NCBI GenBank assembly: GCA_018063105.1
Contig: JAGOQX010000004.1
Span: 1-58,870, forward strand
Length of the DNA: 58,870 bases
Source: Patescibacteria group bacterium
GTDB taxonomy: Bacteria; Patescibacteriota; Patescibacteriia; 2-12-FULL-60-25
Direction: 5' to 3'
Shown piece by piece: positions 13,978-40,494 of the stretch (the stretch's first letter is position 1; each line of letters starts with the position of its first letter). The notes under the pieces were generated by a model that was not told the DNA's origin, did no database searches, and saw only the letters and a program-made list of their open reading frames with translations. The translations under genes and the position numbers were made by a program.

Positions 13978-13983
13978 CTCAGC

Positions 13984-15147: not shown

Positions 15148-15172
15148 AAATCTTGGTCAAAGTATACCATAT

Positions 15173-18100: not shown

Positions 18101-18733
18101 AAGTGGTGCACCGGTTTGCTTTGAAAGCAAGATCAACTGCAAATTAATATCGTTCTGACTTGCGGATTCCGGATGATGAACGAGCTCTAAGAAAAAATTA
18201 TCTGCGCCAAAAATATCCTGATATTCTTTTACCAGTTCAACCGCCTTCTCCATGTCATGCGCCTGACAGGTTTTTGGAATCTCACCTTTGCTGCAACCAG
18301 ATAATGCAATCAACCCTTTTCCATATTGGCGCAAGACATCCTTGTCCATACGCGCCTTGTAGTAAAACCCTTCGAGGTATGACATCGACACTAACTTCAA
18401 CAAATTCTGATACCCCTCATTCGTTTCTGCGAGCAACGTGAGATGCGTAAAGCGATCATCAATTCGAGCTCGTTTATCAGTCAATTTATTCGCCGCAATA
18501 TAAGCCTCTACACCAATAATCGGCTTGATCCCCGCCTTCTTCGCAGCCTCATAAAATTCGATCGCACCATACAAGGCGCCATGATCGGTCAACGCGAGCG
18601 CGTCATACCCAAGTGTCTTCGCGCGATCAACAAGGTCTGTGACGTCGCCCATGGCATCCAACAAGGAATACATGGAATGGACGTGCAAATGGACGAACGG
18701 AGACTTCGGAAGAGCTTCAGGCGTATCTGGCAT
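15173..18733 (-). CDS. dnaE: DNA polymerase III alpha subunit DnaE
   Basis: The protein has 1186 residues from the ATG at 18733 (a TTG two codons upstream is less likely). The N-terminal PHP domain keeps what look like all nine metal ligands: HLHVHS, LTDHG, GVEAYIA, THLTLL, SGCSKG and KDVHYV. Intrinsic exonuclease proofreading is therefore possible. The catalytic core follows, with PDIDMDFDD near residue 405, VGPGRGSAAGS and MDFLGLSNL. A helix-hairpin-helix region (FITRVPGKSINRKSLECL) and an OB domain (VRVGGIVTISKK, FEDLSGSVEVVVFP) follow. This is the replicative polymerase. It stands between single-TM proteins with no replication neighbours; holB lies far left. Confidence 0.97.
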   Translation of the reverse strand: MPDTPEALPKSPFVHLHVHSMYSLLDAMGDVTDLVDRAKTLGYDALALTDHGALYGAIEFYEAAKKAGIKPIIGVEAYIAANKLTDKRARIDDRFTHLTLLAETNEGYQNLLKLVSMSYLEGFYYKARMDKDVLRQYGKGLIALSGCSKGEIPKTCQAHDMEKAVELVKEYQDIFGADNFFLELVHHPESASQNDINLQLILLSKQTGAPLVATKDVHYVTTEDTEAQDALQCIHDGKMLSDNNRYSISSMDHSMVAPEVMVEAFAETPEAIANTRRIADRCNVVLELGINKLPVFEVPEGKTENSYLRELCEAGMQVRYPNGPTPEANERLDFELSTIERMGFAAYFLIVHDYVKWAKDNGVIVGPGRGSAAGSIVAYSLRITNLDPLQYGLLFERFLNPDRISMPDIDMDFDDVKRKDVIEYVSNKYGHDRVAGIITFGTMAARAAVRDVSRVLGWTFQEVDRVAKAIPPPVQGKHIPLEISAKENPELRAMYEGEPRIKLLIDLAIRLEGTARHASQHACGIVIAPRPLVEYAPLQKAQGGDVDQVIQYSLHSTEVSGLLKMDFLGLSNLTIIRDCIDIVKAVHEEDIDIDAIPLHDEQTFELLGRGETTGVFQLESDGMKKYIRELKPSYIEDIIAMVALYRPGPMQFIESFIARKHGREKIVYMHPLLKNALGNTYGIPVYQEQVMQVSKDMAGFTGGQADTLRKAMGKKIAKLMAEMKEKFVSGSIKNGVEKKVAEEIFQQFEEFAAYGFNKSHAACYAMIAYQTAYLKAHWPACFMAALLNSDCTNLDRITIEVEECKRMGMLVLPPDVNESFGKFSVVKETVVGVVEPGAEAKIPTIRFGLLAIKGLGEDVVETIIQERKVNGPYLDLAEFITRVPGKSINRKSLECLIRSGALDRFGDRNRLLFNMEALIEFHRTHERDSSSGQFNLFAMASAKPTIQLRPAPPAKKREMLSWEKELLGLYVSEHPFLEYHGRLKSILVPVNELLLHKKEKTVRVGGIVTISKKILTKNNEPMAFIKFEDLSGSVEVVVFPRVLKDTVACWEVDTALIVSGRPQEKDGEMKLLAEAAFEITPENIDEIVVNRGSEVEAPVVEPAETMTGPGVTPLTINVYLRANLPETALLRLRKIFDEHAGPHPVFFLIDDIESQRRIKTSSKITFHEDVVRSIEELLGKGTVRLM

Positions 18734-18833
18734 ATTCAATAGATTCCCGCTGACAGGACAAGCCCTGCGGGGTTATTTTTATGGGCGGACTGTAGCAGGC
18801 GGAAATCAAGTCAGCAATGCGCGGACCGGACTA

Positions 18834-19157
18834 TTATTCAAAATCCGACAACAGTCGTTTTCCCTTTTTCTTTGGCACTTCTTTTTCCTCTTCTCGGGAC
18901 TTGAAAAACGACATCGCCGTCTTTCCGATTTCTGCGAATGTTCCAAAATACGACAACGTTGATTCAACGCGTTCTCTAATCGCCATCGCGGCAGTTTCAA
19001 CTCTTGCAATCTTTTCACGCGTCTCCCCTACAACCTTATTTCCTTGCCGGAGTAGCGTTGCTAATTCGTATAACGCCCAACAGAGGAAGACAGCTACCCA
19101 GATAATGACGATGGTAGCAACGAGATAAAAAAGATCATTTGTGGATGAGAGGTTCAT
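18834..19157 (-). CDS. Small single-TM protein with cytoplasmic helical tail
   Basis: The protein has 107 residues with a TM at about 10-32 (LVATIVIIWVAVFLCWAL), an amphipathic coiled segment (about 38-75) and a Lys/Glu-rich end (EEEKEVPKKKGKRLL). No domain was recognised; the layout resembles DUF948-type proteins but without a matching motif. It sits 17 bases downstream of pheT on the same strand and may be read through from pheST. Confidence 0.6.
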   Translation of the reverse strand: MNLSSTNDLFYLVATIVIIWVAVFLCWALYELATLLRQGNKVVGETREKIARVETAAMAIRERVESTLSYFGTFAEIGKTAMSFFKSREEEKEVPKKKGKRLLSDFE

Positions 19158-19174
19158 GCCCTCATGATATCACA

Positions 19175-21631
19175 TTACCGAATCTCTGCGCCAAATTTCT
19201 GTTTCAATGTTGATTGAATTTTCTCCATCAATCCATCCACGACTCCGCTTTCCAATGTCCGATCTGATGCGCTAAATGTGAAGTGCATTGCGACAGACTT
19301 TTTGTTTTCTGGAAGATTTTTCCCAACATACGTATCAAACCATTCAACATTTGTAATAAGCGAATCAACCGTTCGAATCACTTTCGCGAGTTCCTCATAT
19401 TCTGTCTCTTGATCAACCATCACAGCTAAATCACGCTTTGCTTCCGGAAAGGCAGGAATCGAAACGAACTGACGAGCATGCGATGCGTCTGGAATGATTT
19501 TTTCAAATGGAATATCAACGAGCCCGACTGGCCCATCCAATTTGAATTGCGCTGCGATCTTTGGTGAAACTTCACCAATTGTCGCGATCAATTCTTCTCC
19601 ACGAAACGCTTGCGCTGATCGACCCGGGTGCCAAAACGCATCATCAGATAAGCGCTTCCATTCAACACCAGAAATTCCCATCTCAGATAAGAGATGTTCA
19701 ACATAGCCTTTTGCGTGTCGCCATGGATTTTTCATTCCCATGAATAACGCACCAACCTCGAGTTGCTCATCTGGAAGATCAGACCAATCCGCTGCTTTTG
19801 GATAGTAGACATTTGAAACTTCGAACAAACGCTGTTCTGGAAAACGCTCGCGGTTTTCCGAAGCGGTCTGCAACAATCCAGGCAATAATGTTGTGCGCAT
19901 CACTTCAAAATCTGTGCTGAGAGGATTTTGAACATGCAACATTCCGTTCGGGTCATACCCCGCCTTCATTACTAATTCTTTAGAGATAAATGAGTACGTA
20001 TACAGCTCCGTCATACCTGCACCTTTTGAAATATCACGCACTTGCTTCTCCCAATACAATTCAGGCTCCATCGGACGAGATGCGACATCGCACGGAACGA
20101 CTCCTGGAATATTCGCGTATCCTTTGACACGTGCAATCTCTTCAACCAAATCTCGCCCATCTTCGATGTCATGATCGCGCCACCATGGAACGATGACGGA
20201 GATTTTTTTCGCGGTTGCAGTCACAGTGAAACCAAGTCGCTTCAAAATAGCGACCATCTCTGTACGGGCAACTGGAACGCCGATAAGTGCGTTCACTTCT
20301 TCGACGCCGATCGAATATTTTAATGGAACGTATTTCGCTGCTGCGACGTCAGTCACGTTGGACGCGATGTGACCACCAGCTAATTCTTTCACAAGCTCAA
20401 CAACGCGAGCGAGAGCCTCTGGCAATGCTTGCGTTGATAACCCTTTTTCAAATCGCAACTGCGCATCACTTTGCAAATTAATCTTACGAGCACCACGACG
20501 AATGCAGACCGGCTCAAAATTCGCACACTCGATGATGACGGACGTTGTCGATGCAGAAACACCCGTTTCTTCACCGCCCATCACACCAGCAATCGCGACC
20601 GGTTTCTTTTTATCGGCAATCACCAAGATCGAATCTTCGAGCTTGTATTCTTTTCCATCCAACGCTTTAATCATCTCCCCATCATGCGCGAACCGAACGT
20701 TGATTCCGCCTTCAAGTTTCGCCGCATCAAACATATGCGTTGGCTGAGCAAGTTCAAGCATCACGTAGTTTGAAATATCGACAAGATTATTGATCGGGCG
20801 AAGACCGGCGGACAGGAGGCGACGCTTCATCCACCATGGAGACGGCTCAACGCTCACGCCATCCATCTTGATCGCCATATATCGCGGGCATTGTTTTTTT
20901 GCCGTTACGCTGACAGACAACCCCCTCTTAATCTCCCCCTTCGTAAGGGTGAGAGATCTATCGGCATGACTCCCCTCCTTACGAAGGAGGGGCTGGGGGA
21001 GGTGCACCGGTTTCCAAATCATCTTCTTATCCAAAATCGCCGACGCTTCACGCGCCATTCCAACCATTCCCATCGCATCAACGCGATTGGATGTCACTTC
21101 GATATCCATGACTGAATCAGAAGAAAGGTCGAGAAAGTCGGACAATGAGAGTCCAGGGCGCATGCCATGCGCCCCTACGAGGGACAGGTCCAAAATCTCG
21201 CGTTCACCATGTGGAAACGCATCTGCCAGACCGATTTCACTTGCACCACAGATCATCCCGTCGCTTTTGACTCCACGAATTTCCGCCGGACCCAACGTAA
21301 TCAACTCACCTTCTCCGTGCCACTTCACTCGCGCACCAATCAGCGCAACCGCAACCCATTGATCAACTTCGAGATTTGATCCACCACACACAATCGTCGA
21401 TGGTTGCTTTTCTCCGATATCAACTAACGCGATACGCAACTTATCCGCATTCGGATGCGGGTTCACTTCCAGCACATGACCAACGACAACTTTGTCGAGG
21501 TCTGCACCTTGCGGATAGATCTTTTCAACACCAGGACCAGAAAGCGAAACACGTTTCGCAAACTCATCCGGCGTCACGCCTTTGAGATCAACATATTCTT
21601 TCAACCAATTGTAGGAGACGAGGGAATTCAT
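19175..21631 (-). CDS. pheT: Phenylalanyl-tRNA synthetase beta subunit with two in-frame palindromic-repeat insertions
   Basis: The protein has 818 residues. It has the N-terminal tRNA-binding (EMAP-like) domain (residues about 40-150: VVGHVLEVNPHPNADKLRIA), then B3/B4 with INNLVDISNYVMLELAQPTH, B5, the core fold (RRGARKINLQSDAQLRFEKG, DLVEEIARVKGYANIPG) and a C-terminal FDX-ACB domain (FPEAKRDLAVMVDQ, DTYVGKNLPENKKSVAMHF). It forms the alpha2-beta2 enzyme with PheS, whose gene ends 3 bases upstream. Two oddities are segments encoded by palindromic repeats: LPQPLLRKEG to TKGEIKRG (20920-21005) and VGAHGMRPG (21155-21173). The frame is kept through both. Confidence 0.95.
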   Translation of the reverse strand: MNSLVSYNWLKEYVDLKGVTPDEFAKRVSLSGPGVEKIYPQGADLDKVVVGHVLEVNPHPNADKLRIALVDIGEKQPSTIVCGGSNLEVDQWVAVALIGARVKWHGEGELITLGPAEIRGVKSDGMICGASEIGLADAFPHGEREILDLSLVGAHGMRPGLSLSDFLDLSSDSVMDIEVTSNRVDAMGMVGMAREASAILDKKMIWKPVHLPQPLLRKEGSHADRSLTLTKGEIKRGLSVSVTAKKQCPRYMAIKMDGVSVEPSPWWMKRRLLSAGLRPINNLVDISNYVMLELAQPTHMFDAAKLEGGINVRFAHDGEMIKALDGKEYKLEDSILVIADKKKPVAIAGVMGGEETGVSASTTSVIIECANFEPVCIRRGARKINLQSDAQLRFEKGLSTQALPEALARVVELVKELAGGHIASNVTDVAAAKYVPLKYSIGVEEVNALIGVPVARTEMVAILKRLGFTVTATAKKISVIVPWWRDHDIEDGRDLVEEIARVKGYANIPGVVPCDVASRPMEPELYWEKQVRDISKGAGMTELYTYSFISKELVMKAGYDPNGMLHVQNPLSTDFEVMRTTLLPGLLQTASENRERFPEQRLFEVSNVYYPKAADWSDLPDEQLEVGALFMGMKNPWRHAKGYVEHLLSEMGISGVEWKRLSDDAFWHPGRSAQAFRGEELIATIGEVSPKIAAQFKLDGPVGLVDIPFEKIIPDASHARQFVSIPAFPEAKRDLAVMVDQETEYEELAKVIRTVDSLITNVEWFDTYVGKNLPENKKSVAMHFTFSASDRTLESGVVDGLMEKIQSTLKQKFGAEIR
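20920..21005. repeat. Palindromic repeat inserted in pheT
   Basis: It contains two hairpins, CCCTT-cgt-AAGGG and CCCCTCCTT-acg-AAGGAGGGG (20972-20992), bracketed by pyrimidine-rich CCCCCTCTTAATCTCCCCC and GGCTGGGGGAGG. It reads as LPQPLLRKEG on the coding strand. The layout is that of small interspersed palindromic elements; only one copy lies in this window. Confidence 0.65.
21155..21173. repeat. GGGCGCATG palindrome in pheT
   Basis: GGGCGCATG-C-CATGCGCCC is a perfect 9-bp inverted repeat around one base, followed by CCTACGAGGGACAGGTCC. It encodes GAHGMRP in a part of PheT expected to be a loop after the tRNA-binding domain. Confidence 0.6.
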
Positions 21632-25357: not shown

Positions 25358-25903
25358 ATGGGTATGTGGCTCCTCCTTGCCGTCGGTCTCGTCGTTGTTT
25401 GGGTCATTTTCACATATAATGGCTTGATTGCGCTAAAAATTCGCACAGACGAAGCCTGGTCAGACATTGATGTTCAGTTAAAACGCCGCTATGATCTGAT
25501 CCCGAATCTCGTGGAAACGGTCAAAGGCTACGCTGCGCACGAATCTGGCACATTTCAAAAAGTCATTGAAGCTCGAAATACGGCCATGGGCGCATCGTCC
25601 GTAGCAGACAAGGCCCAGGCTGAAAACGCACTAAGCCAAACGCTTAAAAGCATTTTCGCATTACAAGAAGCGTATCCGGAATTAAAAGCAAACGAAAACT
25701 TCTTACGCTTACAAGGCGACCTTACAGACACGGAAGATAAATTGCAGGCCTCACGCCGATTCTACAACGGCAACGTTCGCGACTTCAACACGAAACTTCA
25801 GGTTTTCCCAACAAACATCATTGGAAACATGCTTGGCTTTATCAAGCGCGCGTTCTTCGAAATTGCCGAAGCTGAAAAAGCGACCCCACAAGTGAAATTC
25901 TAA
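25358..25903 (+). CDS. lemA: LemA family protein
   Basis: The protein has 181 residues from the ATG at 25358 (the frame extends upstream but opposite the phosphomutase gene). One N-terminal TM (MGMWLLLAVGLVVVWVIFTY) precedes the long helical LemA domain: DEAWSDIDVQLKRRYDLIPN, LVETVKGYAAHE, then RFYNGNVRDFNTKL and FPTNIIGNMLGF. The function is poorly known. It is very often paired with the HtpX protease, as here, where the genes overlap by one base (TAATG). Confidence 0.95.
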   Translation: MGMWLLLAVGLVVVWVIFTYNGLIALKIRTDEAWSDIDVQLKRRYDLIPNLVETVKGYAAHESGTFQKVIEARNTAMGASSVADKAQAENALSQTLKSIFALQEAYPELKANENFLRLQGDLTDTEDKLQASRRFYNGNVRDFNTKLQVFPTNIIGNMLGFIKRAFFEIAEAEKATPQVKF

Positions 25904-26775
25904 TGCCTACAACATACAACGCCATTGACAGCAATCGCCGACGAACATGGATCCTCATTTCCATCTTCGTTGGTTTTGTTGTTGCTGTCGGGTACGTGTA
26001 TGGCTATTACATTTCAGGTGATGGTCCATACGCGCTCATCGTCGCACTCGTCGTCTCACTGGTCATGACGGTATTTTCCTGGTTTGCTGGAGACAAGGTT
26101 GCACTCGCAACAACCGGCGCACAGGAACTTACAGATCGAGAAACGTTTCCAACGCTGTGGAATGTGATCGAAAATCTTTCGATTACTGCAGGAATTCCAA
26201 AACCGCGCATCTATATCATCCAAGATGAATCGCCTAACGCATTCGCTACCGGTCGCGATCCTGAACATGCCTCCGTTGCCGTTACAACAGGCTTACTAAC
26301 GCTCATGGATCGATCGGAACTGGAAGGCGTTCTTGCGCATGAACTGTCCCACATCAAAAATCTAGATATTCGACTTTTCATGCTTGTAGCCGTTCTTGCT
26401 GGAACCGTCGTGATCCTCGGAGACTATGCGTTTCACTTCGGCGGACGTCGTCGAAGCCGTGATGAAGGCAACGGAGGCGGAATCATCGCAATCCTTGGCA
26501 TCATCTTCATCATTCTCTCTCCGCTCATCGCCCAGCTCATCAAACTCGCGATCTCACGTCGCAGAGAATACCTAGCCGATGCATCCGGCGCTCTCCTCAC
26601 CCGCTATCCAGAAGGATTGGCGAATGCCCTCCAAAAAATCAAAGACGCACATCTTCCGCTGCAACGGTCCTCAGCTGCAACCAATCATCTGTGGATCTCG
26701 GCACCGAACCTCTCCAACTTTCTCTCAACACATCCGCCTATTGATGATCGGATCACCAGACTCCGAGCCATGTAA
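25903..26775 (+). CDS. htpX: HtpX-type M48 membrane metalloprotease
   Basis: The protein has 290 residues. Two N-terminal TMs, then a catalytic helix HELSHIKNLD (zinc His-Glu-x-x-His near residues 147-151), another hydrophobic pair (VAVLAGTVVILGDYAF, IIAILGIIFIILSP), and the third-ligand region SRRREYLADASGALLT. This is the M48B arrangement. HtpX degrades misfolded membrane proteins with its active site facing the cytoplasm. The start overlaps the lemA stop. Confidence 0.95.
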   Translation: MPTTYNAIDSNRRRTWILISIFVGFVVAVGYVYGYYISGDGPYALIVALVVSLVMTVFSWFAGDKVALATTGAQELTDRETFPTLWNVIENLSITAGIPKPRIYIIQDESPNAFATGRDPEHASVAVTTGLLTLMDRSELEGVLAHELSHIKNLDIRLFMLVAVLAGTVVILGDYAFHFGGRRRSRDEGNGGGIIAILGIIFIILSPLIAQLIKLAISRRREYLADASGALLTRYPEGLANALQKIKDAHLPLQRSSAATNHLWISAPNLSNFLSTHPPIDDRITRLRAM

Positions 26776-29279: not shown

Positions 29280-30248
29280 ATGGCAAATCCGTCCCTTCGC
29301 TCCCCCGCAAAACCAACAAAAAAAATTGCCGGACTTCAACGCCTCGGTCTTACCGTCCTCCAACAAAACCGCCGGCTTGCAGATGCGCTCTCTTTGCAAT
29401 CTGACAAATATTTTGATCAGCGCACCACTCAACAAGACCCATCAACCATGGGCGATACTGAGCTATCTGATGACAGCATCTCATCATCCGGCGATGCACC
29501 ACGACGATCCGTTCTTGATCTTGGGACAAAGAGCTACGCAAAACCAGAAGGAGAAGAACCATCAACAATGGGCGGAGGACTCCAAGAAGGAACATCTTCT
29601 GACATTGCTCGTACTCGTGCGCTTCAAGAAGCGATGATGTTACGGCAATCTCAATTTGTAGCGGCCGAAACCGGGACACGTCAACAAACCGCGCAAGCTC
29701 AAACAGGAGCTACGCAGCCAGAACAAACAGAAGAGAATGAGGATACCGAAGATGAAGATGAACGAGCACAACAGCTCATGCAGGATAAAGCGCAACAGCT
29801 TCGTCAACAGGCAGAAAAAAAGGCCAGAGACAAAACAGCGAAAGAACGCGCACAACAAATTCAAGAGAAGATGAAGCAGCGGATGAATAAGGCCACAAAA
29901 ACCGCTTCACGACTCACGCTTGAAGGAGCGGAAGTGGCCACATCTGAAGTCATTGTCCCTCTGCTCATTTTGATCGCTCAGCTAAATGTTCAAATGATCA
30001 TGAAGTATTTTTTCAAACCCATGCTTCTTGATGGGAGATTTGGAAATAGCGTCGATAACGCGATGAAAGGGGCGCCATGGATCGATCAATCATTAGTCGA
30101 AGACATCATCACCGTCAATATTGATATCATCCTCACATGTGCCGGCATCTGCTGTAATCCGTGCTGCTTACCATTTGTGGTGTTAGCAATAATTTCAACA
30201 GTGATCACAAACCCTGGATCAGCGCTCAAAGCAGTCATTCAGCAATAA
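29280..30248 (+). CDS. Acidic/Gln-rich protein with C-terminal membrane segments, unknown
   Basis: The protein has 322 residues. The N-terminal half is polar and disordered, with two copies of a PSTMG motif (near residues 54 and 94). A charged coiled coil follows (about 150-215: QLMQDKAQQLRQQAEKKARD). The last ~110 residues hold two or three hydrophobic segments (VIVPLLILIAQLNVQMIMKYFF and ILTCAGICCNPCCLPFVVLAIIS, the latter with four Cys). It has no signal peptide and no recognised family. It starts 11 bases after clpC and leads into the surface-protein block, so it may be a membrane component of that apparatus. Confidence 0.65.
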   Translation: MANPSLRSPAKPTKKIAGLQRLGLTVLQQNRRLADALSLQSDKYFDQRTTQQDPSTMGDTELSDDSISSSGDAPRRSVLDLGTKSYAKPEGEEPSTMGGGLQEGTSSDIARTRALQEAMMLRQSQFVAAETGTRQQTAQAQTGATQPEQTEENEDTEDEDERAQQLMQDKAQQLRQQAEKKARDKTAKERAQQIQEKMKQRMNKATKTASRLTLEGAEVATSEVIVPLLILIAQLNVQMIMKYFFKPMLLDGRFGNSVDNAMKGAPWIDQSLVEDIITVNIDIILTCAGICCNPCCLPFVVLAIISTVITNPGSALKAVIQQ

Positions 30249-30250
30249 AA

Positions 30251-30260
30251 GTGGTATACT
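30251..30260 (+). promoter_or_regulatory. Extended -10 promoter GTGGTATACT
   Basis: TATACT (30255-30260) lies only 8 bases before the ATG at 30269, so the message would be essentially leaderless. It is identical to 10444-10453. Confidence 0.6.
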
Positions 30261-30268
30261 GTACGTAT

Positions 30269-31492
30269 ATGTCAGAACGTACAAAAAAGATTTTATTTGC
30301 TGTATTTTTCATCCTCTTTTCCCTCGCAATGGGATACGCATTGTACTGGATGCTCTTTCGCTCTCAAGCAACGCTACCTGGGCAACAACCATCTGAGCAA
30401 GAACTCACTGGAAATCTTCCAACAGCTGCAAGCGGCACCATAGGTATTACGCCAGACGTACAGCCAACAAATCTTCCTTCAGCCGGAGAGGTCCCAACCG
30501 CCCCAGGCGCAGAAACGCAGACCGGCACACGACTACTTCGTGACGGAATTTCTCAAGCCCTCACACCATCACCAGATGGAAACGGTGCACGATTCTACAA
30601 TCCAGAAGATGGACGCTTTTATCGAGTATCCGCAGACGGAACGATCACATTGCTGGGTGAAAAACAATTTTTCAATGTCGACAAAGTAGACTGGGGCAAA
30701 CAAACAGATCAAGCCATCTTAAACTTTCCAGATGGAACGAACGTGTTCTATGACTTTGCTGAACAACGCCAGGTTATTCTCCCAAAACACTGGGAAGATT
30801 TTAATTTCTCATCAAACGATCAACAGGTTGCTGCAAAAAGCATCGGCGTAGATGAAGCAAACCGGTTTCTTATTGTGAGTAAACCAGACGGGTCAGAAGC
30901 AAAAGCAATCGAGCCACTCGGCGACAACAGCGGACTTGCACATGTTGCATGGGCCCCCGGCGGACAGATCATCGCCTACTCCCAAACCGGCCAACCACAA
31001 GGAAACAACTATGAGGAAATCCTGATGATCGGACAAAATCATGAAAACTTTCGATCACTCATAGCACCTGGTCAAGACTTTTTACCAAGCTGGTCACCAA
31101 CAGGAAAACAGATGCTCTTTAGCGTTTGGAACCAAGATTCAGGCAACAGACCAAACCTTTGGATCAGCTCTGGTGAACCATCCACAATGGGTGCGGGCCG
31201 AAAAAACCTCCATATCCAAACATGGGCGGATAAATGTGTGTGGGCTGATGATTCCAATCTGTATTGCGGCGTCCCACAAGGACTACCAATCAATGCAGGC
31301 ATTCAACGCTCTGATTTCGCGACATATCCAGACGACGTCTATCACATCAATCTCTTGAACGGCACGTTCCAAAAAATCAATACGCCGGATCAAACACACC
31401 CAATCCGACAGCCCGTCTTAAATCGTGATCATAGTAAATTCATCTTCGCTGATACAGAAACGGGAAAAATTTATAGTTACGATATCCAATAA
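30269..31492 (+). CDS. Membrane-anchored beta-propeller protein (TolB/WD40-like)
   Basis: The protein has 407 residues from the ATG at 30269. One TM (about 8-27) is followed by a Pro/Thr-rich stalk (about 35-80) and an extracytoplasmic domain built from repeated blades: LAHVAWAPGGQIIAYSQTG, LPSWSPTGKQMLFSVW, HIQTWADKCVWADDSNLYCG, NRDHSKFIFADTETGKIYSY. The W-x-P-x-G-x-x-[IL]-x-[YF] pattern is that of TolB-type propellers, which usually bind proteins or ligands. Two Cys in the TWADKC blade may form a disulfide. It stands first in a run with the DsbA-like and module proteins. Confidence 0.75.
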   Translation: MSERTKKILFAVFFILFSLAMGYALYWMLFRSQATLPGQQPSEQELTGNLPTAASGTIGITPDVQPTNLPSAGEVPTAPGAETQTGTRLLRDGISQALTPSPDGNGARFYNPEDGRFYRVSADGTITLLGEKQFFNVDKVDWGKQTDQAILNFPDGTNVFYDFAEQRQVILPKHWEDFNFSSNDQQVAAKSIGVDEANRFLIVSKPDGSEAKAIEPLGDNSGLAHVAWAPGGQIIAYSQTGQPQGNNYEEILMIGQNHENFRSLIAPGQDFLPSWSPTGKQMLFSVWNQDSGNRPNLWISSGEPSTMGAGRKNLHIQTWADKCVWADDSNLYCGVPQGLPINAGIQRSDFATYPDDVYHINLLNGTFQKINTPDQTHPIRQPVLNRDHSKFIFADTETGKIYSYDIQ

Positions 31493-31497: not shown

Positions 31498-32190
31498 ATG
31501 CATCGGAAACAGATCATCCTCATCGCGCTCCTCGTCATCATCATGCTCAGTATTAGCGGTTGGATGATTTTTCGCGGTGTCCATCTTGCCCAGAATTCGT
31601 TTCTAACCGGTAAACCACCAGAAAACATGCTAGAAGCACTTGTTCCACAAACGATCGATCCTGCAAAGATGCATCCACCTGCCGTTCGTCCCGCTGATCC
31701 AGTTCGATATGGCAACGTCACCTCATCAGCAACGGTCATTGTCTTTGGGGATTTTGAATGTGCATCCTGTGCCGAACTGGTTACAACGCTCAACACAATT
31801 ATCCCAACCTATAACGGAAAAGTGCGTCTCGTATGGCGCGATCTTCCAATCACCGAACAACACTCAAATGCAATGAACGCGGCGGTCCTTGCACGATGCG
31901 CACATACACAAGGACAGTTCTGGCAAGCGCATGATGCATTGTTTCAAACAACAAAACTCAATTCATTTACTCTACAAACGATCATTAATCGCCTCAACCT
32001 GAATAAAGCAGCCTTTTCTGCATGTCAAAGTGATCCAAAGATACGACAAGCGATCGAACTCGATGTGAAAACCGCTGCAGCTGACGGAATTCAAACTACA
32101 CCTTTTATCTTTATCGGAACAAAAGCCATCAACGGATCCATCACAGCAGATCAACTCAAAAAGGAAATTGATTTGTTTCTAAAATCATGA
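31498..32190 (+). CDS. DsbA-like membrane-anchored thiol oxidoreductase
   Basis: The protein has 230 residues with an N-terminal TM (about 5-25) and a thioredoxin fold of the DsbA/BdbD type. The active site is CASC (Cys88-Cys91, in VFGDFECASCAELV). The helical insertion carries FWQAHDALFQ, and the cis-Pro loop is GIQTTPFIFIG. It would form or shuffle disulfides in exported proteins. The three following module proteins are unusually Cys-rich outside the membrane and are obvious clients. Its stop overlaps the start of the next gene by four bases, so the enzyme and a likely substrate are translationally coupled. Confidence 0.9.
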   Translation: MHRKQIILIALLVIIMLSISGWMIFRGVHLAQNSFLTGKPPENMLEALVPQTIDPAKMHPPAVRPADPVRYGNVTSSATVIVFGDFECASCAELVTTLNTIIPTYNGKVRLVWRDLPITEQHSNAMNAAVLARCAHTQGQFWQAHDALFQTTKLNSFTLQTIINRLNLNKAAFSACQSDPKIRQAIELDVKTAAADGIQTTPFIFIGTKAINGSITADQLKKEIDLFLKS

Positions 32191-33947
32191 ACCGTTCCCG
32201 ACTTCAGCATCTCTTTCTTCTCCCCGTCTGCATTGTCGGCAGTCTCTGTATCGCGATCCCAACAAGTTTCGCCGCAAGTTGCTGCAAATGTAAAACCGCT
32301 TCAGATGCTTCAAACAATATCTGCATGACCATCGCGAAAGATGGATTTGATGCAGCAACTCAATGCAAAGACCTGGCAACATTGTATCCAACGAATGAAG
32401 CATTAAAATCGCTCTCATGCGAATCAATGGAGTGTGGGAATCTCAAATTGATTCCAGATGGTGGAACGTGTTCAAGCAGCGTGCTTCCAGAGGTGTACGG
32501 CGCAACTACAGCAACGCCAACCGAAACAAAACCTAGCATCGCCCCGCAGCTCGAAATTTCAATACCTGGACTTTCATTCCCATCGCAACTTCCAACAGAT
32601 GGAGGCATGATTCAAGTTCCGTTTCTCGCAATGTACATCGGAGCCCTCTATAAATATCTCGTCGGCATCTGCGTCATTGCTGCAGCACTCATGGTCGTCT
32701 ACGGTGGGTTTAAATACATTCTCGGCGCATCATTTGCGACAATCTCAACAGGGAAACAGACGATTCAAGACGCACTCATCGGACTCGTGCTCATTTTTGG
32801 TTCATATACGCTCCTCGCCTCGCTTAATCCAGCGACAGTCTCACCGCAAACGTTAAGCATTCAAGCAATCGCACAAACGGCCTTTACCGTTCCTGCAGAA
32901 GAACGAAAACGAGTCATTGAATCTGCAACAACGCCATCCAATCCTGAACCAATTACTCAGGAAACTGCCGTTGCTCAATCTGGTGGCGCAGGTGGTGCAG
33001 CCAGTCTAGTCTCAGCGATTGGTGAGAAAGCTATGAAAGCTCCGGGAACAGTGGTTCAAGATGCAAATGGAAACTATGTTGCGCAAGGAAGATGTCCGAA
33101 TGACATGATCGCGATTCCTCATTCGGATGCATACAAACCCATGGCTGATCCAACATCAATGCACCAGCCCGTAAATGTTCCTTCATTTTGCATTGACACA
33201 TACGAAGCCCCAAATCAACTTGGTAAAAAACCCATGCTCGGCCTCGTTGTCAAGGAAGCGGATTGGTATTGCCAGTCCATTGGAAAAAGGCTATGTAGTC
33301 GCGATGAGTGGGAACGCGCATGCCTGGGACCAGATGGAAAAAATATCTATGGTTATGGACCAAAATATGAGCCAGGGGTTTGGGTAAGCGCGGAAAAAAC
33401 ACTGAGCGCCGATCTGAAGAAAACAGATAACAAGCCAGCACGCTGCAACTACGATACACCAACGCCAGGTAAGCTCAAAGGCTTCATCCAGGTTTTTGGC
33501 GTAATGTATCCGGTTAATAAACCAGAACAAAGCATACTTGTTGCAAAAGATATTTTTGTAAAAGACCCGAAAAGAGAAGGAAAAAATTTATATGATGAAA
33601 TGCAAGAAGAGCTCCAAGGTATTAACGGAACAGAGCCAAGCGGTTCACGCCCATTATGCATCACGGCAGAAGGCGTTCATGACATGATCGGAAACATTGC
33701 AGAAACTGTAGCGGCGCAAAACAGAACAACAGTAGATCAACGAACAGCCACACCATCAACAGCTATTATTAGCTCTAGCCCATACCGTGTGATGAATTTT
33801 TATTGGTCTCCTATTTCGCATCTTGCAGACACAAAAGCAATTCCACGGTGCACATTTACAGGCGGAGGAGTCCACCCACTTGGATACAGAACCCACGAGG
33901 TCGGGTTCCGCTGCTGCTTAAATCTGGATTCAACTGCAGGAAATTAA
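32187..33947 (+). CDS. Two-helix pilin-like module fused to a formylglycine-enzyme/C-lectin-fold domain
   Basis: The protein has 586 residues. A signal peptide (1-30) is followed by a Cys-rich segment (SCCKCK to GGTCSSS, 31-95). The shared membrane module spans about 119-230 (QLEISIPGL, then PFLAMYIGALYKYLVG, VVYGGFKYILGA, GKQTIQDALIGLVLIFGSYT). After a linker, residues about 300-583 match the FGE-sulfatase/C-lectin fold: FCIDTYEAPN, EADWYCQSIGKRLCSRDEWE, GVHDMIGNIAETV, and the final YRTHEVGFRCC. The RGGSW and paired active-site Cys of true formylglycine enzymes are not evident, so this is more likely a binding domain than a catalyst. Start ATG overlaps the DsbA-like stop. Confidence 0.8.
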   Translation: MNRSRLQHLFLLPVCIVGSLCIAIPTSFAASCCKCKTASDASNNICMTIAKDGFDAATQCKDLATLYPTNEALKSLSCESMECGNLKLIPDGGTCSSSVLPEVYGATTATPTETKPSIAPQLEISIPGLSFPSQLPTDGGMIQVPFLAMYIGALYKYLVGICVIAAALMVVYGGFKYILGASFATISTGKQTIQDALIGLVLIFGSYTLLASLNPATVSPQTLSIQAIAQTAFTVPAEERKRVIESATTPSNPEPITQETAVAQSGGAGGAASLVSAIGEKAMKAPGTVVQDANGNYVAQGRCPNDMIAIPHSDAYKPMADPTSMHQPVNVPSFCIDTYEAPNQLGKKPMLGLVVKEADWYCQSIGKRLCSRDEWERACLGPDGKNIYGYGPKYEPGVWVSAEKTLSADLKKTDNKPARCNYDTPTPGKLKGFIQVFGVMYPVNKPEQSILVAKDIFVKDPKREGKNLYDEMQEELQGINGTEPSGSRPLCITAEGVHDMIGNIAETVAAQNRTTVDQRTATPSTAIISSSPYRVMNFYWSPISHLADTKAIPRCTFTGGGVHPLGYRTHEVGFRCCLNLDSTAGN

Positions 33948-33965
33948 TAGCCAGAGAAAATCACC

Positions 33966-35438
33966 TCACGATGTAGGGGGCTTATATTTTGGCTTACACC
34001 CTTTCATCGAACCGTGCGGAGGGTCAGGAGGAAACGCACACTTGAAACAATCAGATGGGTACACGCCTTTATAATCAAAGTGCCACATCTCGCTACACAA
34101 GCGTTTCCATCCGGCTTCCGCCATAATCTGCTGCAAGATGGTGGCATTCTCAAGCCCTAAAGAAACCGCCTCGTCTACCTGATTCGTACCAGAATTTTTA
34201 TCACAAATTGTCCCAAATGCTGTTAGCTGCTTCTCTTTTCCATCTACCATTTTCTTTAACATAATATCAGCGGCAATTCCCAATCCATGATTTGAAGATC
34301 CGGGCAGCCCCATCCCTCCGGACTTTGGCGGATTATCCCCAGCTGCAATACTTTCCGCCGTCCGTCGACAAAAATTTTTTACTTGATACTCCATCGGCCG
34401 CCCAACTTCTGTGACATATAAAAAATACCCTTTTCCTTGTGCAATTTTTCCAGCCTTAAGCAATGCATCATGCGCCTCCTGAGTTACGGTTATAGCCGGA
34501 GGATCCAACATGAGCTTTAACCCATACTGCTCAATTTGCTGTTTTTTATCTTTTGGAAGATCTTTAAATGTGATCAACGACTTCTCCGCTTCAATGAGTC
34601 CTGCCGGTTTCGGATCCATATGAGGCTGTGGCAAACAATACTTGTTGTAACAGTCCTGTACCGATGCACATAACGCCTTAACCTCTGTATAACCGTTTGG
34701 TCCACATCCTTGGTTCTTATTCAGGGAAAAATCAATACCCGCCAGACCACCAGACTGTTGTTGCGGAGATGATGACGATCCACCCGAACCACCGACACCC
34801 GCACCGACTCCCGATTCACCTGCACCCCCAACTCCCGCGCCAGCACCAACGTTATTCCCCGTTGAGTCTGTCGAAGCTTCTGCTGCCGCACGAGCATATT
34901 GGCTTGGAGGCTGATCACCGTGTTGGATCGCTGAATAATATTCCAGATCCACCGTTTGAACTGTAAGGGGTTTTAGTGTGCCCAACGACGGATTCATCAC
35001 TTTTAACAAAGTAGAACTTGCAAAAACCAATATCAATCCAAGCACTGCGTCTTTGATACGCTCTTTCCCATCCTGAATACCCGCACCGGTCGCAGCGATA
35101 ATATATTTAAATCCACCGTACACAATCATCACGGCGGCGGTGATAACAACAATACCTAGGAGAAAATTATATACTCCATTTATATAGGCCCCTAAAAAGC
35201 CAATTTGGATGCTGTCTTTTTGAACACTCACCTGCCCCGAAGAAAGATTTACACCCGGTATAGCGACTTCTAATTGAGGCGTTACAAAATCAGAAACCTT
35301 CGCAGCATCTGCAGCAAACGCAACGTGTACTGGTACGATGGAAAAAATTCCAATACCAAGACCTATCAGTGCGACGCAGCATAAGACACGTACAACAATA
35401 GGCTGTTTTAATTCAGGCATTCTCATGAACGTTTTCAT
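33966..35438 (-). CDS. Two-helix pilin-like module fused to an M15 DD-carboxypeptidase
   Basis: The protein has 490 residues. A signal anchor (about 14-42) precedes the shared module (about 53-165: QLEVAIPGV, FLGAYINGVYNFLLGI, MIVYGGFKYIIAAT, DAVLGLILVFASSTLL). A Gly/Ser-rich linker (196-229) leads to a Cys-bearing segment and a peptidase M15 domain. The VanY-type zinc ligands are visible: SSNHGLGIAAD (His384, Asp391) and EMWHFDY (His453, with Glu450). Members trim the terminal D-Ala from peptidoglycan stems. The C-terminal tail is Cys-rich (DCFKCAF). The gene converges on the FGE-fold gene with 18 bases between, and diverges from the transglycosylase gene. Confidence 0.88.
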   Translation of the reverse strand: MKTFMRMPELKQPIVVRVLCCVALIGLGIGIFSIVPVHVAFAADAAKVSDFVTPQLEVAIPGVNLSSGQVSVQKDSIQIGFLGAYINGVYNFLLGIVVITAAVMIVYGGFKYIIAATGAGIQDGKERIKDAVLGLILVFASSTLLKVMNPSLGTLKPLTVQTVDLEYYSAIQHGDQPPSQYARAAAEASTDSTGNNVGAGAGVGGAGESGVGAGVGGSGGSSSSPQQQSGGLAGIDFSLNKNQGCGPNGYTEVKALCASVQDCYNKYCLPQPHMDPKPAGLIEAEKSLITFKDLPKDKKQQIEQYGLKLMLDPPAITVTQEAHDALLKAGKIAQGKGYFLYVTEVGRPMEYQVKNFCRRTAESIAAGDNPPKSGGMGLPGSSNHGLGIAADIMLKKMVDGKEKQLTAFGTICDKNSGTNQVDEAVSLGLENATILQQIMAEAGWKRLCSEMWHFDYKGVYPSDCFKCAFPPDPPHGSMKGCKPKYKPPTS

Positions 35439-35499
35439 TGTACCATTCGCGCATTTCCATATCCATCTTATCCATTTTGCGCTATCATAGACTTAATTC

Positions 35500-36957
35500 A
35501 TGACCTCATTCTTTCATCGAATACGAATGACTTGTAGGATCGTCTCACTGATGAGTTTTATTGCTCTGTTACTCATCCCGTTCTACATCACCCAAGCTGC
35601 AGAGCCGACCACAACCAATAAACCTTCCTATGTGCCGGTTGTTCCTAGTCTTGAAGTTGCCATTCCCGGAGTCTCATTTAAAGGAAGCGAGGTCGGAATT
35701 TCGAATGATCCTGGAGGGCAAAAAGCTCAGATGCCGTTTCTGGGACAATATATTGGGGGCGTGTACAACTATCTTATCGGGATTGGCGTCATTACCGCTT
35801 CCGTCATGCTGATCTACGGCGGATTCTTGTACATCATCGGAGCAACATTCACACAGATCAGCAAAGGCAAAAGCGTAATTCAAGATGCACTCATCGGACT
35901 CGTCCTTCTTTTTGCATCATGGACAATTTTACACACGCTCAATCCAAACACGCTCAAATTCGCATCAATCAGCATCGACGTGATTGATGAAGACCCATTT
36001 TCACTTGGACAATATTCATTTTCTCCACCGGTTGGCGCAGCACCAATTCCAGCGATGACAACCCCGAGCGCACCAGCACCATCCGGAACAGAAACGACAC
36101 CGGTCAAACCTCCCGCTGGCACAGGAGGAACACCCGCACCTGCAACGCCTGAAAACACCCCTCAACCGATCAAAGTCAATACAGATTCTGCTTCAATCGC
36201 AAAAGATGTGATCGAAGGTGCAAAACTTGCCGGCGTGAATCCATGCACCATTCTTGCCATTTGTAATCAAGAAACGCGCCTCCGGTCTGTGTGGAATGGG
36301 ATTCAAGGAGGAACGCCGAAAGAGAAGGCGGGCTATTTTGGACCATGCGGCGTAGGTCTGTCCTTTATTCAAAAAGATTGTGCTGCCGGGAAAAAATGCA
36401 ATCTATTTACCGATCAGATACGAGCACAATTTCCAGACTTCCCTCCAATCCTCCCAAGCTCTGCAAGTCCAGAAGAGAAGTTAGCCGACAAAAATGCCAG
36501 ACGTGAATGGTTACTGCAAAATATTAAAGGAAGTGCGTTTGTCGCATCGCTCTTCTTCAAAAATGGATATGACGGCGGAATCGGCAACGAAGTCTTACGA
36601 CTCGCTTCATATTCTGCGGGCCCAGAATCAATACGAAAAGCTTTGCGATCGAACGGAGCTTGCACCCCAGAGCCTAATTTGACCGTCGCGCGAGCATCAT
36701 CTGATGCCGGTTCAGCATTAGCAAAATCGTGCATCCCAAAATATACCGCCATCGCAAAAGCAATTAGAGGTCACGTGACCTGTGAAGACGAAAATTATGC
36801 TTGCGTTGACGTGAAACCAAACAAACGATCTGAATACGAAGGTCACTGCCCTTCAGACGTCAATAAACTGTGTTTCGCCATGGACACGGACACGTACGCT
36901 CGAAACGTGTTGGAATTCTATCCACAGATGCAGAAGACCTACGGGTGTGATAAATAG
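35500..36957 (+). CDS. Two-helix pilin-like module fused to a lytic-transglycosylase-like domain
   Basis: The protein has 485 residues. A signal peptide (about 12-33) precedes the shared module (about 49-163: SLEVAIPGV, PFLGQYIGGVYNYLIGIG, LIYGGFLYIIGATF, IQDALIGLVLLFASWT). A Pro/Thr linker (174-228) is followed by a lysozyme-like domain with ILAICNQETRLRS (putative catalytic Glu258), GYFGPCGVGLSFIQ and LASYSAGPESIRKAL, matching soluble-lytic-transglycosylase logic. At least twelve Cys lie outside the membrane. It would cleave glycan strands of peptidoglycan, its own or another cell's. Its stop precedes radA by 5 bases. TATCAT 11 bases before the ATG suggests a short leader. Confidence 0.85.
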   Translation: MTSFFHRIRMTCRIVSLMSFIALLLIPFYITQAAEPTTTNKPSYVPVVPSLEVAIPGVSFKGSEVGISNDPGGQKAQMPFLGQYIGGVYNYLIGIGVITASVMLIYGGFLYIIGATFTQISKGKSVIQDALIGLVLLFASWTILHTLNPNTLKFASISIDVIDEDPFSLGQYSFSPPVGAAPIPAMTTPSAPAPSGTETTPVKPPAGTGGTPAPATPENTPQPIKVNTDSASIAKDVIEGAKLAGVNPCTILAICNQETRLRSVWNGIQGGTPKEKAGYFGPCGVGLSFIQKDCAAGKKCNLFTDQIRAQFPDFPPILPSSASPEEKLADKNARREWLLQNIKGSAFVASLFFKNGYDGGIGNEVLRLASYSAGPESIRKALRSNGACTPEPNLTVARASSDAGSALAKSCIPKYTAIAKAIRGHVTCEDENYACVDVKPNKRSEYEGHCPSDVNKLCFAMDTDTYARNVLEFYPQMQKTYGCDK

Positions 36958-36962: not shown

Positions 36963-38324
36963 ATGGCAAAAAGCGATCTCGTCTATTCCTGTTCAAAATG
37001 TGATGCACAAACACCGAAGTGGTCCGGTCGCTGTTTAGAATGTGGAGGCTGGGGAACGTTGCAAGAAGGAGCAGCATCACAAAAGCCATCCACAGCACGC
37101 ACGACAACTGCAACAAGTGGACAATTGCAATCGTTCAGTGGACACAGCGCAACGGCGGCGCCCATGCGAACGACGCATCTTGCAAGTCTTGATTTTATTC
37201 TTGGCGGTGGCCTTGTTTCCGGCTCCGTCACACTCATTGCAGGAGAACCGGGTATTGGAAAATCAACGCTCCTTGCGCAAACAGCGCTCGGGATCGCACT
37301 CCAAAAAGGCAACATCATGTATGTGACGGGCGAAGAATCACCATCACAAATTTATCGTCGACTATCACGCCTTGAGACAACGATTCCAGACTCGCTCACC
37401 TATCTCGATGAAACAGACGCTGAAACGATTGCCGCAACCATTGCAACAGAAAAACCGACATTGTGTATCGTGGACTCCATTCAATCACTACGAACAACAA
37501 ACACGAATGGTGAAGCTGGAAGTACGGGGCAGGTAAAGGCGTGTGCAGCAATCATCACTGAGGCTGCAAAAACACACAACATCCCCGTCATTCTGGTTGG
37601 ACAGGTGACTAAAGATGGAGATGTTGCCGGACCCCGCGTTCTCGAGCACGTTGTGGACACCGTGTTATTTTTAGAAGGAGATCACGAACATCGCTATCGC
37701 GTGCTGCGCTGTTTGAAACATCGATTCGGACCAACGGATGAAACCGTACTGCTCTCCATGACAGAGCACGGCCTAGAACCCGTGATGGACCCCTCAAGCG
37801 AGCTGTTGCGCGATCGATCGCGTGGCGTTTCTGGTTCAGCAATCACCTGCTTAATTGATGGACATCGGGCGATCCTTCTCGAAATTCAATCACTTGTTTC
37901 CCCGGCCGGATACGGAACACCCGTCCGACGAGCCACGGGCGTCGATACAGCTCGACTAGGGATGCTCCTTGCCGTCCTCGCCCGACGTGGCAGCATTCAA
38001 GCAACGGACAAGGATGTGTACGCAAACGCGGTTGGTGGAATTGATGCGCGTGACCAAAGCGTTGACCTTGCCCTTGCAGCCGCAATCGCGAGCGCAGTCA
38101 AAGACAAACCACTTGACCCTCGACTCGGAATGTTTGGTGAAATCGGATTAGGTGGCGAACTTCGACCGGTCAGCTTTCCAGAACTCCGATTAAAAGAATT
38201 TGCCAGAATGGGATTCACAACCATGATCGTTCCAAACGGCCAAGGCAAAAAAATCCAAGGACTCGAAATCAAAGAAGCAGCAACACTCAGAGAAGCTCTT
38301 GGAGCGATTGGATTGTTTTCATAA
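36963..38324 (+). CDS. radA: DNA repair protein RadA
   Basis: The protein has 453 residues. It has the N-terminal C4 zinc finger (CSKCDAQTPKWSGRCLECGG), RecA-like ATPase core (GEPGIGKST near residue 94, VDSIQSL Walker B) and C-terminal Lon-like domain (GIDARDQSVDLALAAAIASA, GEIGLGGELRPV). The signature KNRFG reads KHRFG here (near residue 252), an Asn to His change with Lys and Arg kept. RadA promotes branch migration in recombination. The stop abuts the convergent recG stop without a gap. Confidence 0.95.
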   Translation: MAKSDLVYSCSKCDAQTPKWSGRCLECGGWGTLQEGAASQKPSTARTTTATSGQLQSFSGHSATAAPMRTTHLASLDFILGGGLVSGSVTLIAGEPGIGKSTLLAQTALGIALQKGNIMYVTGEESPSQIYRRLSRLETTIPDSLTYLDETDAETIAATIATEKPTLCIVDSIQSLRTTNTNGEAGSTGQVKACAAIITEAAKTHNIPVILVGQVTKDGDVAGPRVLEHVVDTVLFLEGDHEHRYRVLRCLKHRFGPTDETVLLSMTEHGLEPVMDPSSELLRDRSRGVSGSAITCLIDGHRAILLEIQSLVSPAGYGTPVRRATGVDTARLGMLLAVLARRGSIQATDKDVYANAVGGIDARDQSVDLALAAAIASAVKDKPLDPRLGMFGEIGLGGELRPVSFPELRLKEFARMGFTTMIVPNGQGKKIQGLEIKEAATLREALGAIGLFS

Positions 38325-40403
38325 TCACTCTCGATGCGTCGTCTCCTGTAAATATTCAACTTGAGCTTTGAGCGTAGGATATTTTTCCAACATCACATCT
38401 TCCTCCAACATCTCCTTTGCAACCTCCTTCGCGTCTTTCATTAATTGAAAATCATCGATTCTCGCCATTTCAAACATCGCCTGTCCGCTTTGCTGTGTCC
38501 CGAGAATATTCCCCTGTCCTCGTAATTTTAAATCTTCTTCTGCAACCAAAAATCCATCCGTTGTTCGTTCCAAAATGCGAAGACGTTCTAACGAAAAGGC
38601 ATCATCAGACGGCATGAGCAAGCAATATGACTGATGTGTTGAACGACCGACACGGCCTCGGAGCTGATGAAGTTGTGCGAGACCAAATCGTTCAGCGCCT
38701 TCGATTGCAATCACGGTCGCCTCAGGAACATCAACGCCAACTTCAACAACCGTTGTCGCAACAAGCACATCGAGCTCGCCACTCGCAAATGCTTGCATCT
38801 GCGCGTCTTTGTCCTTCACTGGCATTTTTCCATGCAACATTCCGATCCGACGACCGATCAATGGACCCGTTTGCAATCTCCGCATTTCAGCTTCAACACT
38901 TTTCACTCCAAGCGTGTCAGATGGATCAATTAATGGACAGACGATAAAGACTCGATGACCCTGGGTGAGCTGATCCTGAATCAGTGCGTACATCGTATCG
39001 CGACCAGATGCACCGACGTAGACATGTGTTTGAATGGGCAGACGGCCCTGCGGTTTTGTTTTAATGATTGAGACATCCAGATCTCCAAGCATAGTCAATG
39101 ACAATGAACGTGGAATCGGCGTCGCACTCATAGAGAGGAGGTGCGGAACTTTTCCATCCTGACGCGGAGCAACCACCAGCGTCTCACGTTGAGCTACACC
39201 AAATCGATGTTGCTCATCTACAACAGCTAACACAACGTCTGGCGGCGACTGACCTTTTTCTAAGAGTGCATGCGTCCCAACGGCGATCACACGACCACGA
39301 GACAATCGCTCTCGCGCCGACTCTGCATTCAATTTTGTTTCTTCTCCACCTTCAATAATTAATCGCGAAGACGATGTCATGAGCAAGACGGGAATCTGAT
39401 ATGGAACAAGCAAACGGCGGAACGTTTCCAGATGCTGCTTTGCCAATAAATCCGTTGGCGCCATGAAGACGGCGGATCCACCACTTCGATACACAAGCGC
39501 AGCAAGCATTGCGGCAACAACTGTTTTTCCGCTTCCAACATCACCCTGTAGCAATCGCCGCATTGGACGATCAGATTGAATATCTTTCACCGCGCTCCAC
39601 ACGGCCTTCTTTTGATCTGCTGTTAATTCAAATGGAAGACCGGATACGAAGCGTTGCGCAAATAATTCATCAAACGTGAATATCGGCGCACCTGCTCGAT
39701 CCGCTTCTTTTCGTGCCGTCCGAAGAGCGAGTTGATAGACCAGTAATTCTTGAAACGCCAAACGACGCCTCCCCTGCCCCGTCTGCTCAATCGTCTCTGG
39801 CCGATGGACGTACTGATATGCCTGCGGAAGAGAGACGAGATTCACTCGTTTCAAAAGTGACGAATCTAAATATTCATTCGGCAAGACCGTCTCTTCAACC
39901 GTTTGCCGCATGATTTTTCGTAACGTCTTTTGCGTGATTGAACCATGCAACGGATACACCGGGGCAACAGTTCCAGCGGCAAGCGTCTCATCAGAAACGG
40001 GTTCCCACAACGGACTTGTAAATCCACGACCAAGACGGGGACGCATGGTCACGGTTCCAGAAATAAAAATCTCATCACCAACGTTCAACTGCTTCACAAG
40101 CCATGGTTGATTAAACCATGTCACCGGAATTTGTCCGGACTCATCCTCAACTATTCCCTTAATCATCACAAACCGACGACGAAATGTTGGCAGCTGTTTC
40201 AACGCAACAACCTTTGCCTTAATCGTCACCGGCTGACCTGTTGGAATTTTTGCGATCGGAACAAGATTCGAATAATCATCATATCGCCGAGGAAACATCG
40301 ACAACAACTTCCCCACCGTTTCAATCTCCAGCGTCTTCAACACCCGTCGCTGTTGAGGCGATTCAAGGTGAATAAAGGAGATAGGGTCGTCCCATTGAAG
40401 CAT
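38325..40403 (-). CDS. recG: ATP-dependent DNA helicase RecG
   Basis: The protein has 692 residues from the ATG at 40403 (MLQWDDPISF); an upstream start would run into the terminator. A wedge/OB domain (VVALKQLPTFRRRFVMIKG, TWFNQPWL) is followed by superfamily 2 helicase motifs: GDVGSGKTVVAAML, VDEQHRFGVAQRE (DEQH box), LLSMSATPIPRSL, TTVVEVGVDVPEA and QLRGRVGRS. RecG remodels stalled forks and Holliday junctions. The length is usual. It is convergent with radA, so two branch-migration enzymes sit tail to tail. Confidence 0.96.
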   Translation of the reverse strand: MLQWDDPISFIHLESPQQRRVLKTLEIETVGKLLSMFPRRYDDYSNLVPIAKIPTGQPVTIKAKVVALKQLPTFRRRFVMIKGIVEDESGQIPVTWFNQPWLVKQLNVGDEIFISGTVTMRPRLGRGFTSPLWEPVSDETLAAGTVAPVYPLHGSITQKTLRKIMRQTVEETVLPNEYLDSSLLKRVNLVSLPQAYQYVHRPETIEQTGQGRRRLAFQELLVYQLALRTARKEADRAGAPIFTFDELFAQRFVSGLPFELTADQKKAVWSAVKDIQSDRPMRRLLQGDVGSGKTVVAAMLAALVYRSGGSAVFMAPTDLLAKQHLETFRRLLVPYQIPVLLMTSSSRLIIEGGEETKLNAESARERLSRGRVIAVGTHALLEKGQSPPDVVLAVVDEQHRFGVAQRETLVVAPRQDGKVPHLLSMSATPIPRSLSLTMLGDLDVSIIKTKPQGRLPIQTHVYVGASGRDTMYALIQDQLTQGHRVFIVCPLIDPSDTLGVKSVEAEMRRLQTGPLIGRRIGMLHGKMPVKDKDAQMQAFASGELDVLVATTVVEVGVDVPEATVIAIEGAERFGLAQLHQLRGRVGRSTHQSYCLLMPSDDAFSLERLRILERTTDGFLVAEEDLKLRGQGNILGTQQSGQAMFEMARIDDFQLMKDAKEVAKEMLEEDVMLEKYPTLKAQVEYLQETTHRE

Positions 40404-40445
40404 GAGGGCATGGTACGAAAATCGAACATAAAAAGCAAAACCACA

Positions 40446-40494
40446 CAAAAAGATATCCCCTTGAGCTCACCGCGTATGCAGTGTTCTCAAGGGG
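40446..40494 (-). terminator. Terminator of the PRPP-synthetase-like gene
   Basis: CCCCTTGAG (40457-40465) pairs with CTCAAGGGG (40486-40494), with an inner stem CACTGC/GCGGTG. On the minus strand it is followed by AUAUCUUUUUG. Confidence 0.85.

Follow-up and report, generated by a model that had tools for sequence, protein, structure and literature searches.

VirB2 pilins sit in the membrane with the N- and C-terminus both facing outward, and the way of the type IV secretion system (T4SS) through peptidoglycan is opened by VirB1 enzymes. In Patescibacteria the role of the near-universal T4SS is a standing question, and surveys report few VirB1-type hydrolases together with pilin arrays that have no settled explanation. 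Here we analyze a 58,870-nucleotide stretch of DNA from a Patescibacteria group bacterium (the window; contig C48 of a 962-kb genome in 56 contigs), in which three adjacent genes encode a pilin-like module fused to three unrelated C-terminal domains (heads). We take the genome to belong to the class ABY1 from the names of its relatives, the relatives of the module being Candidatus Uhrbacteria and other Patescibacteria; the window's own family is Uhrbacteria.

Pilin arrays of Patescibacteria have already been published (PMC12102498), and the pilin cluster of Southlakia epibionticum is essential and needed for epibiotic growth (PMC10633639). A survey of Patescibacteria found VirB1 to be scarce, and the sole fusion that it mentions, VirB3-VirB4, was not found there (PMC12102498). 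The published arrays of PF18895 or VirB2-like pilins share with the proteins described here a homologous two-helix core, a signal peptide, several divergent copies per array and a T4SS context. However, published PF18895 members have been treated as small pilins, whereas the module here is extended by flanking strands, is as a rule joined to a head of 200-600 aa and often has a Cys-rich N-terminal domain as well. VirB1 and the T4SS wall hydrolases of Gram-positive bacteria (PrgK, TrsG, CD419) likewise tie lytic transglycosylase and peptidase domains to a T4SS, but VirB1 is a soluble protein on its own, while here the predicted enzyme shares a chain with a VirB2-like module and the range of enzyme classes is much wider. 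Polymorphic toxin systems also combine a constant N-terminal part with rapidly exchanged C-terminal domains; in contrast to these, no immunity genes were seen here, the heads are predicted wall hydrolases or binders and the constant part is pilin-like. The arrays of VirB2 and VirB5 variants in the Bartonella Trw system similarly encode a T4SS surface subunit in several differing copies, but there the differences lie in the pilin itself, whereas here the modules of a genome resemble one another and it is entire enzymatic domains that change.

The family described below joins two components previously known only as separate proteins. The original prediction for this DNA, made from the sequence alone, knew of no earlier description of this exact trio. 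For the fusion this stands, as searches of open-licence papers for wall hydrolases or pilin fusions found no description of a VirB2-like module joined to wall hydrolases; the module, on the other hand, is an already named Pfam family, and what appears to be previously undescribed is its fusion to heads predicted to be mostly wall-active, in a large class-wide set.

A pilin-like module is shared by three otherwise unrelated proteins

The three open reading frames (ORFs) lie where they had been predicted, at 32187..33947 (+), 33966..35438 (-) and 35500..36957 (+). Protein 1 (586 aa) consists of a signal peptide, a Cys-rich N-terminal domain whose family is common to 27 proteins, the module (aa 115-238, 32529-32900) and a head (32901-33944). 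Proteins 2 (490 aa) and 3 (485 aa) have a signal peptide followed by the module (aa 47-173, 34920-35300, and aa 41-172, 35620-36015, respectively) and a head (33969-34919 and 36016-36954), each on the strand of its gene. These borders, set with a hidden Markov model of the module, contain the segments 119-230, 53-165 and 49-163 originally proposed as the shared region.

The module, about 120 residues long, is 38-48% identical among the three proteins, the remainder of which is unrelated. BLASTP among the whole proteins (eight-protein database) gave identities of 38-45% with E-values of 1e-29 to 1e-36, in alignments that reach no further than the module and the last part of the N-terminal region; the heads show no similarity to one another. 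All of the sequence motifs named in the original prediction are present, and the alignment, described there as almost without gaps, has its only indels in the loop after IPG.

The module corresponds to Pfam PF18895 (T4SS_pilin), for which the curated cut-off is 26.6 bits. Protein 2 scores above this value (29.4 bits in a protein search, 34.3 in a six-frame search), protein 3 lies on either side of it (24.0 bits in the protein search, below; 27.7 in the six-frame search, above) and protein 1 reaches 16-20 bits, under the cut-off, with a module that is 38-47% identical to the other two. Stand-alone relatives of 127 and 131 residues from other classes match the module with E-values of 6e-23 and 9e-22, and VirB4 is about 1 kb away from them in L217 and L218, loci that also encode TrsD, PrgI and VirB6. 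The family match and these stand-alone relatives beside virB4 support a pilin-like module of the VirB2-like T4SS kind, in line with the resemblance to VirB2/TrbC noted earlier.

Hydropathy gives each of the three proteins one signal-peptide-like segment and two more hydrophobic regions, and an AlphaFold (AF2) model of the module (50 alignment rows, mean pLDDT 88.5) places helices at residues 35-68 and 72-102, flanked by short strands at 30-33 and 112-115. The signal peptide and two hydrophobic helices of VirB2-like proteins are therefore present, and the termini would lie outside. The model contains the two helices proposed at the outset, but with a short strand on each side the modeled module exceeds the simple two-helix hairpin first envisaged. 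Foldseek with the module gave no match at E<=0.001. The proteins do not have the length of a short processed pilin (about 100-150 aa), the frames being 485-586 aa in the window and mostly 300-800 in the class.

Recognizable heads belong mostly to predicted wall-active classes

The three heads had been read as an FGE/C-lectin fold, an M15 carboxypeptidase and a lytic transglycosylase, and these assignments now stand at different strengths. By its match to PF03781 (43.6 bits against a cut-off of 23.3), head 1 is with certainty an FGE-sulfatase domain. Head 2 matches NF007557 (3e-8) and, by profile, VanX 1r44 (1.1e-7); it contains both SxHxxGxAxD and ExWH, and the zinc-site residues are kept: Ser, His, Gly and Asp in the former and Glu and His in the latter do not vary among five homologous heads. 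Its scores against Pfam M15 and VanY are below their own cut-offs, and the identification as an M15/VanX-VanY-type domain is well supported. Head 3 itself has no Pfam match. Two of its homologues, L119 and L116, score 25.5 and 19.1 bits against SLT (cut-off 21.3; only L119 passes), a candidate catalytic Glu is invariant in 8/8 members of the family, and hhalign of head 3 against SLT heads aligns the catalytic Glu, with a probability that is uninformative with so few sequences. A full-length AF2 model of protein 3 (whole-model mean pLDDT 61, with the head at low confidence) was set aside. Judged by its homologues, head 3 is probably a lytic transglycosylase; wherever its family was found in 41 genomes of the order, the frame measured 350-591 residues.

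Heads of this kind are seen across the whole class, as the idea of interchangeable wall-active or binding heads had anticipated. The full-length module (E<=1e-12) occurs in 252 of the 286 sampled ABY1 genomes and, among the matches listed, it is nearly always fused to a head within a frame of 300-800 residues. In a phylum-wide sample, matches outside the class are mostly short frames of 100-250 residues that cover the two-helix core, and frames of 300-1500 residues occur there too. About 160 module proteins were collected (median length 491 residues, with a median of 261 residues after the module), and Pfam was run on 150 C-terminal regions. About a dozen head classes were found in this search for other fusions, which had been suggested with the original prediction: SLT (11), VanY (11), M15 (11), C39_2 (9), M23 (9), FGE (5), Amidase_2 (4), C39 (3), 3D (3), GDSL (2), NlpC/P60 (2), glucosaminidase (1) and GH18 (1). 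Since these counts overlap (VanY with M15, C39 with C39_2), about a third of the heads have a named domain, and most of these are predicted to act on peptidoglycan. Many other heads form families with conserved Cys/His or Glu residues and no Pfam name; PDB profile searches using the unassigned head clusters gave nothing meaningful.

Heads are exchanged while the module is retained

In a tree of 69 modules (a quick method on 125 columns, with many open forks), modules cluster by genome, requiring 30 changes compared with a mean of 46.5 and a minimum of 43 after shuffling; scored by head class, the same tree requires 28 changes, against 35.1 when shuffled. Modules of one genome that carry different heads are 49.0% identical, and those of different genomes that carry the same head 40.5%. 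In the genus of G092 and G121, four modules share 77-91% identity, yet each has a head unrelated to those of the other three, including a GDSL esterase and a domain with a weak M15_4 match. Because the modules group by genome and not by head, and those of G092 and G121 carry unrelated heads, we conclude that the module stays in place as heads are swapped. Such exchange is frequent but not universal, since in the genus of G079 and G164 both heads have been retained, at 81% and 87% identity.

The likeness of modules within a genome could be the result of recent copying. In G092, two neighboring ORFs (L157, 1734-3485 and 3567-5348) encode modules that share 101 consecutive identical residues, with N-terminal parts and heads that are about 30% alike. 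Because the third codon positions are nonetheless only 61% identical, this identity reflects constraint at the protein level and not fresh copying. Recent gene conversion as the sole cause is likewise rejected for G002 and G016 (third positions across the three genomes, 44-61%), while in G123, where third positions are 98% identical, fresh copying or gene conversion fits.

Simple tandem duplication as the origin of the window's trio, which the original prediction had discounted, is rejected here as well, the heads being unrelated and the orientation variable. The trio was also rejected as a conserved unit, because other genomes carry other sets of heads; what the window shows is one instance of a variable array, 1-4 genes long, that occupies a fixed locus.

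The locus is linked to the T4SS core operon in relatives

Across the window's family the gene order is fixed, running from M48, ClpC, PD40 and DsbA through 1-4 module-head genes to RadA and RecG, with differences in how many heads there are, which kinds they are and how they are oriented. In the window, the array is preceded by a membrane-anchored PD40/TolB-like beta-propeller gene (30161..31492, +; PF07676 21.5 bits) and a gene for a DsbA/thioredoxin-4-like secreted oxidoreductase (31498..32190, +; PF13462 2.3e-25), and it is bordered downstream by radA (36963..38324, +) and recG (38325..40448, -). The +, -, + pattern of the module genes recurs in L048 and L050, and also in L049 when that locus is read in the DsbA direction. 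DsbA adjoins module genes in most relatives, also at a second locus.

In other families of the class, the locus runs into the T4SS core operon (VirB6-PrgI-TrsD-VirB4), with RecG joining the two. The order in L232, L233 and L234 is hyp606-PrgI-TrsD-VirB4, then RecG-RadA-module(s)-DsbA-PD40 (DsbA undetected in L234), with the block 7-9 kb from VirB4; in L229 and L230, a module gene is 1.5-2.6 kb from VirB4 and the PD40 gene is also near VirB4. Overall, a module gene lies 3-37 kb from virB4 in 9/11 well-assembled relatives (Fisher p 4e-4 assuming independence, a guide only because the genomes are related). According to a published survey, comF, recG and radA are common parts of the T4SS loci of ABY1 (PMC12102498). 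In one relative, an intein that carries a LAGLIDADG domain (PF14890 2e-13, PF14528 3.4e-18) interrupts VirB4, a 1293-residue frame (L235:12813-16694, contig C7 of G032, -).

Proposed role and alternative explanations

We consider it probable, though by a modest measure, that a VirB2-like T4SS module displays exchangeable wall hydrolases and binders with disulfide bonds, which would amount to VirB1 and VirB2 in a single chain. The proteins would enter the membrane by the Sec route, leaving the N- and C-termini of the two-helix module outside, and the neighboring DsbA-like enzyme would form the disulfides of the heads (the median Cys content of the ectodomains is 4.7%, compared with 0.73% in other window proteins). 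The module would then dock on, or co-assemble within, the T4SS (VirB4/TrsD/PrgI/VirB6, encoded elsewhere in the genome), bringing its head, whether peptidoglycan-cutting or binding, to the site of secretion, where the wall would be opened for the machine. The oligomerization proposed in the original prediction has indirect support from the likeness, within a genome, of modules whose heads differ. Exchange of heads between related genomes with the module kept would make sense if the module has to match a common partner while the heads follow a wall target that changes. This target is most likely the wall of a host or competitor, since the heads turn over between sister species. The system may be a route by which these ultrasmall bacteria, presumed parasites, open a wall, either their own or that of a host. 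With a VirB2-like module and a predicted wall hydrolase in one chain, these proteins are candidates for the missing wall opener, and the change of heads between sister species makes the host specificity of epibionts testable gene by gene. An extension of this model, in which a genome's various modules would build a mixed fibre or tip on the T4SS surface that shows several different wall-cutting heads simultaneously, and epibiotic ABY1 would swap heads to match the host wall, is speculative and we hold it to be doubtful.

Several observations weigh against the display model. The PF18895 scores are modest, and protein 1 taken alone is under the cut-off. The module profile, compared by sequence with the PDB, retrieved no VirB2 chain and nothing meaningful. 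When the whole model was compared, the archaeal conjugation pilin 8dfu ranked first at Z 6.8, tied with unrelated hairpins; as these equal its score, the fold alone is indecisive, and the link to T4SS pilins rests on sequence. In addition, about two thirds of the heads have no Pfam match, the T4SS core and virB4 of the window's genome are on another contig (C36), with linkage seen only in relatives, and oligomers and pili are deduced from genes, just as the enzyme activity of the heads is predicted.

The module could instead be a mere two-helix membrane anchor, once pilin-derived, that tethers ordinary autolysins to the cell's own membrane for growth and division, with the T4SS linkage as a leftover of how the genome is organized. 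A signal peptide and two hydrophobic helices are enough for anchoring, separate short-pilin arrays in genomes of the class could build the real pilus, and M15, SLT and M23 enzymes are common autolysins. We nevertheless find this unlikely: the likeness of modules within a genome despite unrelated heads, with 101 identical residues over third positions at 61%, points to constraint beyond anchoring, synteny with the T4SS core persists across several families, and the heads differ among species of one genus, unlike housekeeping autolysins.

Another reading would have the heads serve as VirB1-type accessory enzymes that act only on the cell's own wall for T4SS assembly. This would agree with the scarcity of VirB1 homologues in Patescibacteria and their frequent location away from virB4 (PMC12102498), with SLT as the commonest head, jointly with VanY/M15, and with the linkage of the locus to virB4. 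However, a housekeeping opener would have no need for about a dozen domain classes that turn over between sister species, and FGE, GDSL and GH18 heads fit poorly, so that we regard a role restricted to the own wall as somewhat unlikely. Finally, a constant module with variable heads exchanged between close relatives is also what would be expected of polymorphic-toxin-like delivery, wherein a trafficking module carries toxic C-terminal heads into or onto rival cells. We judge this improbable, as the heads are predicted to act on walls and not in the cytoplasm, and the window's module genes are direct neighbors, none of them separated from the next by an immunity-like gene; the gaps among them and to radA are 5-61 bases, and the DsbA stop and the start of protein 1 share 4 bases, which leaves no room for an immunity gene beside the heads.

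Additional module proteins and neighboring genes

The window's genome contains at least 7 copies of the module: three in the window, one each on contigs C25 and C20, and more distant ones on C37 and C43. The copy on C25 (L015:8588-10243), the fourth of the close module proteins, has a head that is a putative Cys/His hydrolase, and it adjoins genes read by eye as rnpA (10818) and dnaA (11571). On C20 (L014:6270-8297), DsbA and a module gene are paired for a second time, and what looks like uvrA comes after them; this module belongs to a family (h6) that forms a clade of its own and is conserved in relatives. On C37, tandem genes (L011:7485-9449 and 9455-19609) encode module proteins of 654 and 3384 residues, the larger of which has an N-terminal module followed by a Cys-rich repetitive stretch and is perhaps an adhesin. 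In G018, a module protein (L079:4794-6689) has a DUF459/SGNH esterase domain that is N-terminal rather than C-terminal.

Upstream of the array, the M48 peptidase (25903-26775) gave a weak PF18895 match (13.5 bits), which was taken as a chance transmembrane match. The gene at 29280-30248 encodes a Gln/Ala-rich protein of 322 residues with a hydrophobic C-terminal part. Its position is kept in many relatives, where its counterparts vary in length and exceed 1000 residues in L052 and L059.

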